Of a DNA stretch of 64,000 nt, positions 9,600 through 19,258 are shown in pieces. Positions within the stretch are counted from its first letter, which is position 1, and every line of letters starts with the position of its first letter. The notes below the pieces were generated by a model. It was not told the origin of the DNA and searched no databases. It saw only the letters and a list, made by a program, of their open reading frames with translations. Both the position numbers and the translations under genes were made by a program. This DNA is from Meandrina meandrites (lineage: Eukaryota; Cnidaria; Anthozoa; Scleractinia; Meandrinidae), in NCBI GenBank assembly GCA_963693305.1, contig OY855903.1, positions 29,710,598-29,774,597 of the forward strand, given 5' to 3'.

Positions 9600-10541
9600 G
9601 TATTTCGTGTAAGATGTCAGGTGCGGTTACGAATTGACAAGTGAACAAGGTTAAGACAATGGATATATATTTATGGTATATTTGTGGTACATTATATGTG
9701 TTTTTGCTCAAAGAAAAGTTTTAAGGTATTTATTTTTAAGGCGGGTGACAAGGTATAGAGTAAATTGTAAATATGGGTACACTATGTTCGGTGTTACACG
9801 GTGGTAGCAGGGTGGTTTTACTTTGTAATACTGACAAAAAATGTGAAGAATGTGATTAACAGATTTTATCGAGGTGAACAAAAAAACAGATGTAGTTTTA
9901 TTGTGTACTGTTTGACTGTGGGGGAGACGTTCGATCAGGGTAATATTTCGTGCAATTTCTTACATAAGGTTTGTGGTTGAGTTTAAAGGAGTAAGAAAAA
10001 GTTTACCAGAAATTTCCACTAGACAGAGTGAACTGTCATCAATTTATGAGTTTATTTTTTGGTATAGTTTGAGGTAGGTTGTTTTTGTTATACTAGATTA
10101 AGTAAACAGAAATTTTTAGATTGAGGGTCGCTGCAAACGGTTTAAATTTAGCATTTTATCTTGCATCGCATACCGTTTATCGGTTGTGGGATGAACTTTC
10201 TTTACTTTAATTTGGTGCTTTGTAAAATGTTTTCTTTTGTATGTGTTGCGTGCTGTTTAGTTGTTTGTCGTTTATCGGTTATGGTATTGTTACCTTCTTT
10301 ACTTTAATTTGGCCCTTTGTAAAATGTTATACTTTTGTATGTGTTGCGTGCTCTTTAGTTGTGTATGGTTTATCGTTCATCGGTTGTGGTATTAACTTTC
10401 TTGTGAAATATCATTTTAGTATGCGCTGAGTGCTGTTTATTGACAGTTGCATTTCATTGTTAAGCTTTCTTGGGTTTTTTTCGAAGCGGGTTGTAGTTGT
10501 TTAATTGTATGTGTAATTTAATAAAAATATAATAAAAAGCG
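9600..10541 (+). other. Leader of the Helitron-like element, with tandem duplication
   Basis: T- and G-rich sequence without open frames of note. From about 10165 to 10440 a unit of about 95-115 bp containing TTTATCGGTTGTGG, ACTTTCTTTACTTTAATTTG and GTGTTGCGTGCTGTTTAG is repeated in two good copies and one decayed copy. Its position just upstream of the Cys-rich and OTU frames suggests a 5' leader, but the true 5' end of the element was not located. Confidence 0.4.
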
Positions 10542-10700
10542 ATGAATAGGATCGTTATTTGTCAGATTTGTCAGAATTGTCAGCAGAAATGTTGTTGCTG
10601 TAAGAAATGTTTTGATTTTGAAATAGATGAGGTTAACTCGTTGTCTTATGAGAGTAAAGTTAATGGCTTTGGTTGTGATAAATGCTGTTGTCATCGGTGA
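10542..10700 (+). CDS. Small Cys-rich ORF (52 aa) upstream of the OTU/Helitron frames
   Basis: ATG at 10542 to TGA at 10698-10700. It encodes a short protein with a dense Cys cluster at residues 7-23 (CQICQNCQQKCCCCKKC) and a second group near the C-terminus (CDKCCCH). Paired Cys spacing suggests zinc binding. It lies about 370 bp upstream of the OTU-encoding frame on the same strand, so it may be the N-terminal zinc-finger piece of the Helitron polyprotein, now separated by stops, or a leader peptide. I do not recognise it. It is short and could be chance, though Cys density this high is rare by chance. Confidence 0.35.
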   Translation: MNRIVICQICQNCQQKCCCCKKCFDFEIDEVNSLSYESKVNGFGCDKCCCHR

Positions 10701-11070
10701 AGAGTCTTAAAAAGAATCAGCAAGAAAAGAGACAGAGCTCCATCTAGAATTTGCTTTAAGAAAATCCATAGCTTATTTCATAAAAAGAGGTGCAATTAAA
10801 CAGAGTTTAAAGAATTATAATCGACAGAATGTTCCTCGTTCTTCGCACTTGAGGAGTTTTCTTCGTGCGAATGTACGTATCGATGTATTGAATCGTGTTG
10901 AGTATGTGTGCTTTTGGTAATTTAAATTTAAATTGAAGGTGATTAATACATCTGCTTTTTACAGTGGTCAGGGTTTTTCCATTTCGAGTGGCATTTCAAG
11001 TAGCAATCGAAAATATCGAATTTGGAAAGGCGTTAGATTTACTTGATGTTGGAGGAATGCATTTCGTTTT

Positions 11071-11337
11071 TTGAGAGTTAGTTTTTGTAAGCAATTTTTT
11101 GTAGTGTATAAAATGTTATTGCTTTGTGGTGATATTGAAAGAAATCCTGGTCCTTTTGATAATTTTCATGAAAACGTAATTGTGAACCACGTTGAAAGGT
11201 GTTATTGTAGTTCACTACTTAGAAATAGATTACGTGCAATTGGTCTTGTTCCTTTTGATTGTGGTGGGGATGGCGATTGCTTTTTTCGTAGTGTTAGTCA
11301 TCAGTTATTTGGTTCGGCAACAAATGTGGGACAATGA
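11071..11337 (+). pseudogene. 2A-like peptide plus start of an OTU-family cysteine protease (Helitron accessory domain), truncated
   Basis: The frame reads a hydrophobic lead-in, then GDIERNPGP at 11128-11154, which fits the ribosome-skipping 2A consensus D-(V/I)-E-x-N-P-G-P. About 100 nt later comes FDCGGDGDCFFRSVSHQL (11254-11307), the catalytic-Cys signature of OTU deubiquitinase-like proteases (D-x-x-GDGDCFFR). The frame stops at 11335. The rest of the OTU fold, including the catalytic His, is not seen, so the domain is broken or deleted. OTU proteases are known accessories of some animal Helitrons, and the DUF6570 and Helitron N-terminal pieces follow directly. ATG choice is uncertain: 11113 (Met before LLLCGD) is a plausible internal start. 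Confidence 0.7.
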
Positions 11338-11382: not shown

Positions 11383-12064
11383 TGATCTGTCTTTGAAAGA
11401 AAAAAAAGAAAAAGAGTTAGTGATAGCGCAGGGAGAGAAAAAGACAGAAAGAGAAATATAAAAAGACCAACAGATTCTTTTCATTCAAGCATACAACGTG
11501 GTCCAGAATATATTTGTACTTGTTGTGATCAGCTGTGGTATAAGTCATCTGTTAAAAAATGTGTCCACAAGGTATATAGACATTGTTCTTCGGATATAGT
11601 TAATTGTTGTGTTACTGGGGTAACAAGTGTAAATAAAATTGAATGGATTTTTTTAACTTGTCACTCAAATTTGTTGAAGGGAAGGTTACCTTCGTGCGCA
11701 AAAGCAAATGGAATGTGTTTTCCGCCGAAGCCAGTTCTAAGTGTTGAATTTAACTTCACTTGAAGAGAGACTTGTTGCTCCACATATTTGTTTTATGCAG
11801 TTGCGTGAACTTCCAAGAGGAAGACAACTTAAGATTTGTGGAGCGGTTGTTAATGTTCCTGCTAATGTTAATTCTACAGTGAGTTCTCTTCCAAGAGCAT
11901 TTGATGATTCTTATACAGTAGCTGTGAAACTTAAAAGACATCTTGCTTATAAACATCATTATCAGTTTGAAGTTGTGAGACCCAAGAAAGTGTTGGATGC
12001 AGCTAGGTATCTTGTTAGTTCAAGTGAGCTTTTTAATAATGAGGGATACTGTGGAGGGCGGTAA
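11383..12064 (+). pseudogene. DUF6570-like region of the Helitron polyprotein, frameshifted
   Basis: A forward frame from 11383 runs through a basic stretch into RGPEYICTCCDQLWYKSSV and a Cys/His-rich region. It continues to WIFLTCHSNLLKGRLPSCAK and PKPV, and stops at 11761. The match then continues in the next frame from 11741: LNLTSLEERLVAPHICFMQL, ELPRGRQLKICGAVVNVPAN and YKHHYQFEVVRPKKVLDA, stopping at 12064. This order (C-x2-C finger, TCH...LKGxxP, SLEERL, LPRG, VNVPAN, VRPxKV) is the conserved region found in front of Helitron-like N-terminal domains in animals. One frameshift near 11740 interrupts it. The gap to the OTU piece also carries stops. Confidence 0.7.
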
Positions 12065-12552
12065 CGGCAAATGAATTTTATAAGGAGAATATTGAAGACA
12101 TTCATACGAATAATAGTGATTCTGATGTTGCTGGTAACATTGTTGACAAAAATGATGAGTGGTGTGAAGTAGATGAACGTCCATCAGGAGTCACAGATAC
12201 TTTGCTGCAAGATCCAGAAGCGACAGAAGAGGTTGACAGAATAATAAACGTTGTTCCTGCAGAGAGTAGTAGACCGTAAAGGACTTTTGATTGACAAAGA
12301 TTCAGAGTTTTTAGCTTTTTTAGCTTTAGCTGTCCAGACACAGTAAACAAATTAATTCGTTTGGATGAAGGATTTAGAGTTTTCAAGAATGCACGTGGTT
12401 CACCAAGCTACTTTGAACGTTGGAAATCCAACATGGTTTTGCTCTTTTTCAGCAGCAGAAACAAGATGGAATCATCTGTTAAAAATTTTGGGAAGACTGG
12501 TAGACCACAGAGAGTACAGTGATTGTGAAATCAATGAAATGACTTGGCAAAA
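12061..12552 (+). pseudogene. Helitron-like N-terminal domain, first part (interrupted)
   Basis: The frame from 12061 encodes an acidic spacer (NSDSDVAGNIVDKNDEWCEV, then TLLQDPEATEEVDRI and NVVPAES) and stops at 12277. Beyond it lie RLDEGFRVFKNARGSPSYF and, in another frame, GNPTWFCSFSAAETRWNHLL followed by YSDCEINEMTWQ, ending at 12550. GNPTWFxSFSAAETRW is a hallmark of the Helitron_like_N domain that precedes the HUH endonuclease. A block normally found between the spacer and RLDEG appears deleted. Continuity is then broken by insertion of the 2.4 kb element, and the protein resumes at about 14974 with ERIQNDPVTYARNFDYM. Confidence 0.7.
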
Positions 12553-14968
12553 ACATAGGCACGCTAAGCGTGCAGGAGTTATTTTTTCAATTGATTGGGT
12601 GGCTTGGGGTAGAACTGGGTGTTAGTCCTGTTGGGATGGTTTATTGAGCTATTTGTGCATGGTTCATGTGCACGGTCTATCGCGCTGACTAAGAGCTACT
12701 TTTGGAAAAATAACTCAAAAACAATTTAAAAAGAAATTGTGCAAATGTTATAAAATTAGGCTGCTTTCCCTTGTAAATATGACTGTGGTGTGCAACCGAT
12801 CGATCGAACCATACTGTTGAAGACAAAAAATACGTCAGTAATTTCTTCAAACATAAACAGAAAAAAATATCTGGTAGTCACTTTTAAGGTTACCTTGATG
12901 TTTAACTATCCATCCCCTTTCATTCCAAGCCGAAAAAAAACCGCTAAGTACATCAAAACATGGATTGAAAACTGTTGACAACATTTACCGTAAACATGAT
13001 CACAAAATCGCAAACACGCTCCCTAAGAAAGCCAAATTGACCCAGAAATTGCAAACGAATAGCCAGATGGAACAAGAACAAAGTATTCTCGGGTTTCTGA
13101 AATGGCTCCATTATTTTCATCATCAATATAAAACAGAAACCTTTCTGCAAGCAAGGACGACTTTCTTTCGACGAACGCGAGAAACAAACAACTCTAGTCA
13201 CCAGTGCATTTCGGCCAAACCACATGACGATTTTACTTGGACTGGTACAATATGTAATTTCGCAACCAGAAGCAGAAACGTGCCCTAACTTGTAAGCGTA
13301 ACATGATCAGTATCGATATTCCCACGGCCGTGCTAAAAATAGCTGTCGATGAAGTTGTGTGACACGCTTGACTGCACACCCAAAAAGCTAGTTTTCTTTT
13401 CAGCCGTTGTTTTTTGCGTGACGAGCCCAAACAACGGCTGTAAAGGAGACTACCAAAAAGCTGGCTATCTTTTTTTTTCTTTTGCCTATGAGTAAACGTA
13501 CATGTAACTGCAACCGCTTTGCGTTGGGAATATTAAATACACTAAAAAGGTATTGCGTCAGCCATGGAATGAGCTGACATTGCAGCTTTCACTTTCGGTA
13601 TGTGACAAACAAGATTATGTTTACTTTGCATGTTTATTTTGCCAGAAGCGACGGTCGTTAATTTGTTTGCAATTTTGCGACTATTTCTTGTCGGTTTAGC
13701 CAGTTGAAGTGAATATTTTGGCTGTTTCATCGAGGCGAGTTCAGAGATCTGAAGAAAATAAATTTGGCCGACGTAAACACTTGCAAGCATTACGTCATTG
13801 GTACGGAAATAACCGCATTGCACCGCCGTACTACTAAAGATAGCCATCAACAATCGGATGCGAAGCTTGAAATGCGAGACTCGCACAACGACTACTATAC
13901 CTTCCTGCGGCCCTCACTCGCGGCACAAATGATGATTTTCTCTTTCCGTGCCATCCAACTACGTTGTCAAAACACCTGAGGGGAAATTTAATATTTGCCG
14001 AGCAGACAAAACGTGCCCTTGTAACATCATCACGTTATGAGCTTTTCAAATGATCGTACAATAAATAACTCATGACCGCCCATGTGAAGTCCTACTATTC
14101 CTAAGCAGGAAATGTCGAACCTTCTCCGACCACATTCCAACCTCACGAAAATACCTATTATTTGGCAACTCTTGAACCCAAATAAACCCACATGCCTCAA
14201 CCTATTACAAATACGTTATTCTTTGGGGGAAAACCTTGAGAGGTTTATGGTCGCTCGTGTTATTACTTAGCCAAAGCTCCTACTAATGCTATACTTTTAA
14301 CCGAGAGAAAACAGTTTAAACACCGCGCGGTTAGAATCTCAAAGATTTCTCGTTTAATTTCTTTAACACTCGCCCTTACAAACAACCCACAGTGCGTCAG
14401 TTTGTTCTCATTTGGGGACCAAAACAAAATGTTGAGCAAACACACAACACTGACATAAAAAATGGAAGTCACAACATTAAATTTATTCTCAATACACATA
14501 TTTATTCTACTCAAAAACATCATAAATTGTAAATGAAGTGGTCAACAAATACTATACCCATATTCTGTCGTCAACTGAACTAGTTAATTCCGTAAACCAA
14601 GAGAATCACCTTCAACACCATGAAATTTCCAAACACTTTTCAGTTTCAGAACCCACACACAATGTTCTCACCCAAAGCTACATAAAAATCAAGAACTGGA
14701 ATAGAGACTTCAGGCCAACACAGCCTAATAAGGTCGAATCTTTAGCAAAACAAAGATGGCCGTACCTTGAATCCAAAACAAATATTCATGAAAACGATCC
14801 ATATATACAAGCCGCAATTTGATTGGTCCTTGATAGAATCCCAAATCTGATTGGTGTGAAATACATACATGAATGATCCACCCAACCAACATCCAACATC
14901 CATCCACCCACTTAATAGCCAAATACGTCTTCACGCCGACTAAGAGTTATTTTTTAAAAAAATAACTC
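12553..14968 (+). mobile_element. Non-autonomous Helentron/Helitron2-like element, copy 1 (2.4 kb), inserted in the Helitron ORF
   Basis: Starts ACATAGG followed by the 15-nt palindrome GCACGCTAAGCGTGC (12559-12573) and then GGAGTTATTTTTT. It ends with a perfect palindrome of GAGTTATTTTTT and its complement (14944-14968). The GAGTTATTTTTT motif is therefore an inverted repeat that is terminal at one end and lies about 20 bp inside, next to a stem-loop, at the other. That is the asymmetric arrangement described for Helitron2/Helentron elements. The right-end sequence GACTAAGAG(T/C)TA...AAATAACTCAA is repeated near the left end (about 12688-12722). No long ORF; the longest (114 codons, minus, 13542-13886) is conserved among copies. 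It is flanked by A-runs, with no convincing target duplication. Confidence 0.75.
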
Positions 14969-14972
14969 AAAA

Positions 14973-15652
14973 AGTCAGAACGTATTCAAAATGACCCTGT
15001 TACCTACGCACGGAACTTTGATTATATGATTCAACGACTTATTCATGATGTGTTGAAAAGTGAAGTTATGCCTGTTGGAGAGATTACAGATTTTTTTTAC
15101 AGAGTTGAATTTCAGCAAAGAGGAAGTCCTCATATTGATGCGTTACTGTGGATAAAAAATGCTCCACAGTTTGAAGTAGATAGCAATGATAAAATAGTAG
15201 AGTTTGTTGACAAATATTTAACCTGTGAAAAGAATAATTCCGCTAATATGGTTAATTTTATCAATTAACAGACTCATAGACATGCTAAAAAATGTAAGAA
15301 AAAAGGTCAGAAAATTTGCAGATTTAATTTTCCACTACCTCCTATGCGAAAAACAATGGTTCTTAGTCCTGTTAGTAAGGAGAGTTTTACTGATGATCAG
15401 CTGAAAGATATCAAAGATAGATCTGATAGGATAAAAGAATTACTTGATGACATGAAATATGGTGATGATTTCAACTTCGATGAGTTTCTTTATAGGTTGG
15501 GTATAACTGAACAGCAGTATATATGTGCAGTAAGATTTTCGCTTAATCGTGATACTGTGTTATTAAAAAGAGCACCATCTGAAATAAGAATCAACAATTA
15601 CAAGAGTGTTCATTTGAGAGTGTGGCAACCCAATATGGATATGCAGTCTTAA
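14973..15652 (+). pseudogene. Helitron replication-initiator (HUH) domain, truncated and mutated
   Basis: After the inserted element the Helitron frame resumes with ERIQNDPVTYARNFDYM, then MPVGEITDFFYRVEFQQRGS and PHIDALLWIKNAP. It continues through KYLTCEKN, TAA (15266), and HRHAKKCKKKGQKICRFNFP, LPPMRKTMVL, to NYKSVHLRVWQPNMDMQ and a stop at 15650. GEIxDFFYRVEFQQRGSPH is the Rep motif 2 region. The canonical second His of the His-hydrophobic-His metal site is Asp here (PHID, codons at 15131-15139). The Tyr motif and the whole helicase domain are missing; the sequence changes to hAT-like material soon after. The copy is inactive. Confidence 0.75.
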
Positions 15653-17669: not shown

Positions 17670-19258
17670 TTTGAAGAATACAGGGCAATTTTCGGCAATT
17701 CAGATGGAGAAGACACCAGTAATATTGATGGAGATAGTTCCGATATAGATTTCGAAGGTATTGATGAAGATGGCGAGGAAAGTGATGAAGAAATTGACAA
17801 CGAAGGAGCTGCCAAAAACAACGATGAAAAGCCACAGCAACAATGGACGGCTAACCTCAGCAACATCGCTGTTGGCGAATTTTCTGCACAATCGGGAATT
17901 GTCGTAGGCGTTGAAGACGAGCCTAAAAGCTGATAATTTTTTTACCTTGATGTTTGGTGTAGATCTTTTTGCCAAAATCGTGGAGAAGACAAACCGCTAT
18001 GCTCACCCAAAAATTAGCCGACAACACACGCTTTGCTCGATGGCGCGACATCACTAAACCTGAAGACTTACTTTGGAATTTGTGTTATCATGGGGTTGAA
18101 TATCCTTCCACATTTTTATGGGCAATGAAGGAATAAAGCAAGTGATGCCCAAGAACAGGTTCAAAGAAATAAGCCAATATTTGCATCTCAATGATACGAG
18201 TCGAGAACCGGCGCGTGGAGATGCCAATTTTGACAGCCTTTACAAATGCCGCCCTGCTTTGACCGCCGTGCTGAGAAATGTTCAGTGCTGTTATTCGCCC
18301 ACAAAAAACATTTCCATCGATGAGGGGATGATAGCGTTTAAGGTTAGACTATCATTTCGGCAATATTTACCAGCTACACCGACGAAATGCGGAATAAAAG
18401 TGTGGATGGCGGCCGATGCTTCAAATGGCTATGTTGTCAATTTTTCTGTTTACCTTGGAAGCGACGGGCAAATTTGAAGGCGCCATGGGCTTGGATACAA
18501 TGTGGTTATGGATATGGCACGTCCCTTTCTAAGAGGAAATCATCATGTTTTCTTCGACAATTTCTTTTCAAGCCCTATTCTTTTAGAACATTTGCTTGCA
18601 CAGCAAACATACGCTTGTTCTACTGTAAGATGCACATGCAAAGATCTGCCGTCATGTGCTAAGAATAAACTTGGCCAGCCAGGACAAACTATTATGCAAC
18701 AGAGAGGGAGCCGACAAGTAGCACGACAAGCGAGATGGGGCATTTTTGTCAACAAATGTTTCGCCAGAAGAGCCTTCCCGTACCATGCAACGCAAAAAGA
18801 ACGGAAGAAACATTGACATTCAAAAGCCCTGTGTCTCAGATGTTAACACGGCAAATATGGGAGGAGTTGATCGAGCCGATCAATTTCGCTCATATTACAC
18901 CATAGGAGGGCATTCGCGAAAGTGGTATAGATGTATCTTTTGGTTTCTTTTTAATATTCTTGAATGTGAGCACCGAAGAAGTCGCCATCAGTGGAAACGA
19001 GCACAAGCCACTTTTCGTCTGATAAATGGCTACAACTGCCGAAAGCGACAAGCCAACCAAGTGGCAGATCAAGAGCCCCAAAGAAATCACTAAGCAACTC
19101 GCATCAAAGGCCGAAAGAAAGAGTGCGTGCAGTGCAAATCTGCTGGCCGAAAAACACCGAAAGGCTACGCAGTTGAAACAAGAAACAAATGCCAACAGTG
19201 CGGTGTTGCGTTGTGTAAAGTGGGGTGCTTCGACACTTATCACCGTGAAGACGCTTGA
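17670..19258 (+). pseudogene. piggyBac transposase (copy 2), near full length but frameshifted
   Basis: The order is that of a complete transposase. An acidic N-terminus (17670-17933) contains EYRAIFGNSDGED and DIDFEGIDEDGEES. Then come MFGVDLFAKIVEKTNRYA and RWRDITKPEDLLW, followed by 18118-18477 with MPKNRFKEISQYLHLND, KNISIDEGMIAFKVRLSFRQ and KCGIKVWMAADASNGYVVNF. 18502 onward gives MARPFLRGNHHVFFDNFFSS, 18746 onward gives NTANMGGVDRADQFRSYY and SRKWYRCIFWFLFN, and a Cys-rich C-terminus (about 19120-19258) gives ECVQCKSAGRKTPKGY, NKCQQCGVALCKVGC and YHREDA. Asp residues in SIDE, FFDN and GVDRADQ fit the piggyBac DDD. At least four frameshifts or stops (about 17931, 18470, 18490 and 18725) inactivate it. 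Confidence 0.88.

Follow-up and report, generated by a model that had tools for sequence, protein, structure and literature searches.

Non-LTR retrotransposons copy themselves via RNA with a reverse transcriptase, and 2A peptides have reportedly been found in their APE-type members (by Odon, in 2013). As far as the part of that literature considered here goes, such elements, L1Tc among them, likewise carry a mobile-element 2A in frame with enzymes; Helitrons, unlike the RNA-copying non-LTR elements, are rolling-circle DNA transposons. According to the excerpted text of PMC12846837 (Li et al. 2026), StopGo occurs commonly in RNA viruses but only rarely in cellular genes. The 2A peptides of picornaviruses and other RNA viruses, as presented in the same excerpt, share with those reported here the core D(V/I)ExNPGP, an L-rich motif ending in (A/S/C)G and a location in frame between products, but here the peptide belongs to an animal DNA transposon, lies at the junction of a leader and a deubiquitinase (DUB)–Rep protein, and is known from sequence alone. 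The 2A-like signals of sea urchin NLRs (PMC4981915, in its excerpted text) have in common with the type II Helitron leaders described below an N-terminal place and a hydrophobic stretch before the motif; the NLRs are immune genes of the host whose 2A-like N-terminus measures 26 residues, whereas the type I leaders of OTU Helitrons are far longer.

Helitrons and Helentrons with OTU and VTD domains in their frames have been described in PMC9741609, in the consulted portion of which zebrafish Helitron VTDs show DUB activity and transposon OTUs are said to have had no activity tests. The DUBs are the same as those discussed here, to which a 2A site and a basic leader are added; the main text of that paper never uses the term "2A-like". 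A 2A in Helitrons is unreported as far as found, and the survey of eukaryotic and viral 2A by Rao (2025) may list such proteins. "2A-like" and Helitron come together in no paper among the matches listed, the papers joining Helitron with "2A peptide" concern other subjects by title, and NPGP with Helitron was unmatched in a search working from word starts, which "ExNPGP" would escape. The recoding device is a known one, in a class of mobile elements for which no report of it was found, with priority uncertain; its regular use by DNA transposons, if true, would widen the natural range of StopGo.

The window, i.e., the whole stretch of DNA analysed, comprises 64,000 nt of Meandrina meandrites (GCA_963693305.1, OY855903.1, forward-strand positions 29,710,598-29,774,597). 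Its Helitron was compared with P0002, the one of 20 candidates matched in the first search, a predicted protein of 1177 aa with a Cys-rich/basic leader, MLLLCGDIETNPGP at residues 200-213, OTU (251-336), DUF6570 (638-765) and Helitron_like_N (944-1098, 1.1e-23). The features of the window copy are the following:

10542..11112, + strand: leader remnant with a Cys-rich N-terminus, the basic block RDRAPSRICFKK, and NVPRSSHLRSFL (tblastn with P0002; stops and a frame change)
11113..11154, + strand: 2A/StopGo-like peptide MLLLCGDIERNPGP (in-frame translation; aligns to MLLLCGDIETNPGP of P0002)
11155..11253, + strand: spacer between 2A and OTU, 33 residues from the last P to F (translation)
11254..11325, + strand: N-terminal piece of OTU that includes the catalytic-Cys block (Pfam OTU below the cut-off; tblastn with P0002)
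11425..11733, + strand: Cys-rich, zinc-binding-like region before DUF6570 (P0002 553-655, 62% identity)
11741..12046, + strand: DUF6570, in a different frame (Pfam 3.8e-12; 88% identity to P0002 657-758)
12061..12553, + strand: linker and initial portion of the Helitron Rep region, in several frames (P0002 785-1039 in pieces, 51-80% identity)
12617..14968, + strand: insert of ~2.35 kb in the Rep region, foreign to the Helitron (gap in the P0002/P0042 matches)
14969..15646, + strand: later portion of the Helitron Rep, with Helitron_like_N (P0023 453-678, 79% identity)

The first-pass annotation had reported GDIERNPGP as fitting the 2A consensus directly in front of an OTU signature, and translation confirms this. 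GDIERNPGP is encoded at 11128-11154, with the core octapeptide D(V/I)ExNPGP at 11131-11154, and FDCGGDGDCFFR at 11254-11289 in the same open frame (stop-to-stop 11047-11337, + strand), which reads KMLLLCGDIERNPGP, 33 residues, then FDCGGDGDCFFRSVSHQLFG; the predicted break in MLLLCGDIERNPGP would fall between G and the final P. The motif was also rightly placed upstream of DUF6570 and Helitron Rep pieces, with Pfam matches of 3.8e-12 and 3.3e-12 downstream, the latter to Helitron_like_N at 14966-15265. A DNA pattern encoding D(V/I/M)ExNPGP matches just once in the window, both strands included, and in none of 100 dinucleotide shuffles; 3.6e-5 matches to D(V/I)ExNPGP are expected in the window from base composition. 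That the motif arose by accident in decaying DNA, or was brought by another inserted element, is scarcely credible: the window copy is indeed broken in many places, but a single tblastn alignment spans leader, 2A and OTU, and NPGP precedes OTU in P0002 and in 37 other OTU proteins (best 120 of 226). A chance or foreign origin is refuted by these relatives, and with the shuffles they confirm that the motif in the window is genuine.

The alignment in question (E 4.8e-39, 44% over 192 columns, with two window stops) matches P0002 from residue 83 within 10750-11325. Another joins leader residues 42-96 of P0002 to 10611-10790 (55% over 60 columns, E 5.6e-9, one stop), a stretch separated from the 2A by a frame change. 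Outside the tblastn match, the sequence of 10542-10610 itself continues the frame of the 10611 match and is Cys-rich, like P0002 residues 11-40. The Cys-rich leader ORF at 10542, earlier suggested as the upstream product, thus agrees in frame with the P0002 leader, and in the relatives the basic leader is in frame. The OTU fragment reaches a Pfam E of 0.005 and 17.8 bits (cut-off 23.3); despite this sub-threshold score it is, judging by the alignment, homologous to the P0002 OTU. P0002 residues 271-552, the rest of the OTU and the linker, found no tblastn match in the window, and the His part of the OTU is missing. Rep matching stops at 12616 (P0042) or 12553 (P0002) and restarts at 14969, where P0002 is again at residue 1039. 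Two ORFs of the insert have no Pfam match, and similar 22-base direct repeats (91%) are found near both of its ends, at 12700-12721 and 14952-14973. Past residue 678 of P0023, tblastn found no match in the window, i.e., no helicase part after 15646. Just upstream of the leader, at 10162-10402, there are direct repeats 41-49 bases long, imperfect and set 97, 98 and 200 bases apart, which possibly form part of the element's 5' region. With its leader broken, most of its OTU deleted and its Rep split, the window copy is a dead fossil, and as such cannot itself show function; its relatives can.

The relatives are predicted proteins. A second search yielded 226, of which the best 120 were counted, with OTU and VTD assignments transcribed by hand from a precomputed Pfam column; a third search, for which the query was a protein bearing 2A and VTD, gave four matches, two of them new (P0122 and P0123). 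The sources named among the closest matches listed are corals, Oculina patagonica and Paramuricea clavata, and neither IMG/VR nor the prokaryote genome contigs yielded any relative. Among the best 120 of 226, 46 proteins carry OTU and 29 PF04843, the herpes-tegument-like VTD. NPGP is present in 38 of the 46 OTU-bearing proteins, as D(V/I)ExNPGP in 35 and as variants with one core change in three, and canonical 2A in 5 of the 29 VTD proteins. When P0122 and P0123 are added to the matches listed, NPGP is found in 6 of 31 VTD proteins, one with a variant, namely NVEVNPGP of P0122, a protein recovered with a 2A-bearing query; P0123 carries none. Taken together, the 122 proteins (159,472 residues) have 44 NPGP sites, 40 of them canonical, while composition leads one to expect 0.7 and 3.1e-4, respectively.

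The NPGP sites of the relatives lie upstream of the DUB. In 34 of the 38 OTU proteins with NPGP, those in which the regex for the GxGDC block matched, 20-41 residues separate the motif from this block, the other four having altered blocks; in the six 2A-VTD proteins the Pfam match to VTD starts 12-21 residues past the final P. The motif keeps its frame and its fixed place, is retained across diverged relatives, and precedes two unrelated DUBs. The three findings which the first-pass annotation had named as speaking against its proposal, i.e., relatives lacking the motif, a motif out of frame with OTU, or an OTU foreign to Helitrons, were not what emerged: the motif is the rule in the counts given above, its frame agrees with that of OTU in the predicted proteins, and in alignment A1, 27 OTU proteins picked for NPGP, OTU and DUF6570 are present in 27 of 27 and Helitron_like_N in 19 of 27. 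Since A1 was chosen for NPGP, its invariant motif columns do not constitute independent evidence, while the OTU-based and leader-based counts do.

Eight of the 46 OTU-bearing proteins (best 120 of 226) have no NPGP. P0062 begins inside OTU, P0044 begins ~40 residues before it, and P0069 is a distant hemichordate protein. P0022 looks like a truncated protein of the P0017/P0066/P0082 kind; in these three a second OTU domain replaces leader and 2A, an alternative construction of the N-terminus. The clearest exception is P0077, which retains the leader and is devoid of the motif. In P0117 an OTU-like block is present, with neither a precomputed Pfam OTU nor the motif. NPGP is absent from 25 of the 31 VTD proteins, many of which begin directly at VTD.

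These data make it quite likely that OTU-bearing and some VTD-bearing animal Helitrons use a StopGo/2A site to detach a leader from a DUB–Rep protein. The long frame would be ordered leader, 2A, deubiquitinase, Cys-rich/DUF6570 region, Rep and, in some cases, PIF1 helicase. The ribosome would skip the Gly-Pro bond at NPG|P, let the leader go with 2A residues at its end, and continue to make a DUB–Rep protein starting with Pro, as in viral StopGo/2A. The leader, in most cases a basic protein with R(D/E)REPSRIP, would in this way be made together with the enzyme and yet be detached from it. The 2A-like peptide at a fixed place before the DUB probably means two proteins per reading frame; that the Helitron sequences skip is inferred by analogy from the literature. 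The earlier interpretation of a 2A before a Helitron OTU is supported by the relatives' sequences. As to co-translational release of OTU from an upstream product, the leader stands as that product, but what is released would be an OTU that remains joined to DUF6570 and Rep rather than OTU by itself, and by tblastn the copy in the window is too broken to release either product itself.

The sequence around the core is restricted as well. In the 44 NPGP sites p7 is always L or I and p10 always A, S or C; at p11 39 sites have G and 5 have N, and at p12 43 have D and one has N. The upstream context corresponds, as a match by sequence only, to the L-rich (A/S/C)G motif of PMC12846837, in the excerpted text of which L-rich motifs ending in (A/S/C)G accompany D at p12 and an example of motif 6 tested active. 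Core changes are T at p13 in P0011 and P0049 and Q at p14 in P0075, and may weaken skipping; according to the same excerpt, N at p12 is >95% active in its natural context, and E-to-Q at p14 gave 56% or 26% in earlier work cited there. A Met directly before the 2A (MLLLCGD) was considered as the true start and rejected, because Met at p6 is found in only two of the 44 NPGP proteins, P0002 and P0067, and a start there is thus not general.

Conservation of this kind could also stem from a structural linker or a protease site, the 2A fit being incidental. Incidental octapeptides do occur, since a looser 2A DNA pattern picks out 12 IMG/VR stretches whose encoded proteins, by eye, bear no relation to Helitrons. 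Nevertheless, the exact core is retained together with its L-rich context (p10 without exception) while the neighbours vary, the motif columns having a mean of 3.9 bits versus 2.0 and 1.6 in the flanks in a set picked for NPGP, and the motif precedes two unrelated DUBs, which renders an incidental fit quite improbable.

Two types of leader precede the motif. The type I leader has the basic block R(D/E)REPSRIP, RDRAPSRICFKK in the window, followed by PxSSxL. Among the matches listed this block is found before OTU in 26 NPGP proteins, 93-147 residues upstream of NPGP, and 26 of 27 OTU proteins with the block have NPGP between leader and OTU, P0077 being the miss; the regex was widened after P0077 had been seen, which added this one miss where there had been none. 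All 27 block-bearing proteins carry OTU (best 120 of 226), and type I OTU proteins have about 140-390 residues up to NPG. Type II leaders are short, several of them starting with MGxxIxxWRxRIG. Once the final 20 residues (2A) have been trimmed off, the leaders of the OTU proteins P0004 and P0039 and of the VTD protein P0120 are 33-34% alike along 71-73 residues (E about 1e-15 when eight sequences were compared, uncorrected for composition), so that a related leader precedes two unrelated DUBs. No recurring Pfam match was found for the leader in the 27 A1 members; regular use of StopGo by these elements, if true, would point to a conserved transposon leader protein. Its AlphaFold model in P0021 is weak (helices at 70-121, pLDDT about 50-73); being basic and, in this weak model, helical, the leader may bind nucleic acid.

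The VTD proteins P0067, P0070, P0079 and P0122 have leaders of 61-72 residues with a very hydrophobic end directly before the 2A (best 15-residue mean 2.25-2.69). Such ends would suit a segment whose chief function is dual targeting, in the manner of the sea urchin NLRs, with the unskipped product sent to the secretory route and the skipped one to the cytosol, a behaviour shown for N-terminal 2A-like sequences in the excerpted text of PMC4981915 (Roulston 2016). As the main role of the segment this is unlikely, for most OTU-type flanks are weakly hydrophobic (mean <1.0; exceptions P0006 2.07, P0009 1.72, P0002 1.53, P0039 1.35 and P0037 1.15) and stand mostly behind long basic leaders, and a secreted Rep makes little sense. 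Separation of leader and DUB–Rep by StopGo is preferred, and a hydrophobic type II leader may in addition sort DUB–Rep between compartments. It may be ventured, with more doubt than confidence, that Helitrons use StopGo, that the 2A has been kept while its neighbours were swapped (basic or MGxxIxxWRxRIG leader on one side, OTU or VTD on the other), so that leader-2A-DUB is a modular cassette, and that type II elements may also split DUB–Rep between membranes and the cytosol. With regular use of StopGo, the same site before two unrelated deubiquitinases would amount to a natural experiment, and leader and DUB–Rep can be fused or separate in a reporter, which helps to test why Helitrons carry deubiquitinases.

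In the AlphaFold model of P0021 (mean pLDDT 64) OTU residues 191-330 reach pLDDT 85-96 by blocks of ten, and the best PDB match is OTUD3 4bou (E 4.2e-10), with DUBA 3tmp also found; the model thus points to an OTU fold in this relative. In A1, C255 is nearly invariant and H365 invariant, and these we take to be the catalytic Cys and His of OTU; the Cys blocks of P0049 and P0055 are altered. The VTD proteins P0070 and P0079 have 2A, VTD, DUF6570, Helitron_like_N and PIF1 in a single frame. PIF1 helicase lies on the same protein in P0070, P0079 and P0122, and in part in P0013, the only one to enter PIF1 among the 27 A1 OTU proteins, none of which has it complete. STPR repeats (PF21107) occur between VTD and DUF6570 in the 2A-VTD proteins P0113 and P0120.

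A tree of the Cys-rich/DUF6570 region (112 rows, ~200 columns, arbitrary root; 10 of the 122 relatives dropped for poor cover) places the 2A-bearing proteins in three supported groups. The first, of 49 rows (97/99), has 24 OTU proteins with canonical 2A and three with variants; the second, of 18 rows (100/100), has eight OTU proteins with 2A and the 2A-VTD proteins P0113 and P0120 near its base; the third, of eight rows (100/99), has three VTD proteins with 2A and one with a variant. A group of 15 rows with 14 VTD proteins is devoid of 2A throughout. The tree fits an exchange of DUBs behind a retained 2A, but independent gains may also have occurred; with ~200 columns and many rows lacking the N-terminus, it is no basis for a count of 2A gains and losses.

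Elsewhere in the window, pieces of a DDE_Tnp_1_7 transposase, of a family presumably of the piggyBac type, lie in overlapping frames at 18100-19090 (+ strand; E 3.2e-27, 2.9e-12 and 1.6e-6).
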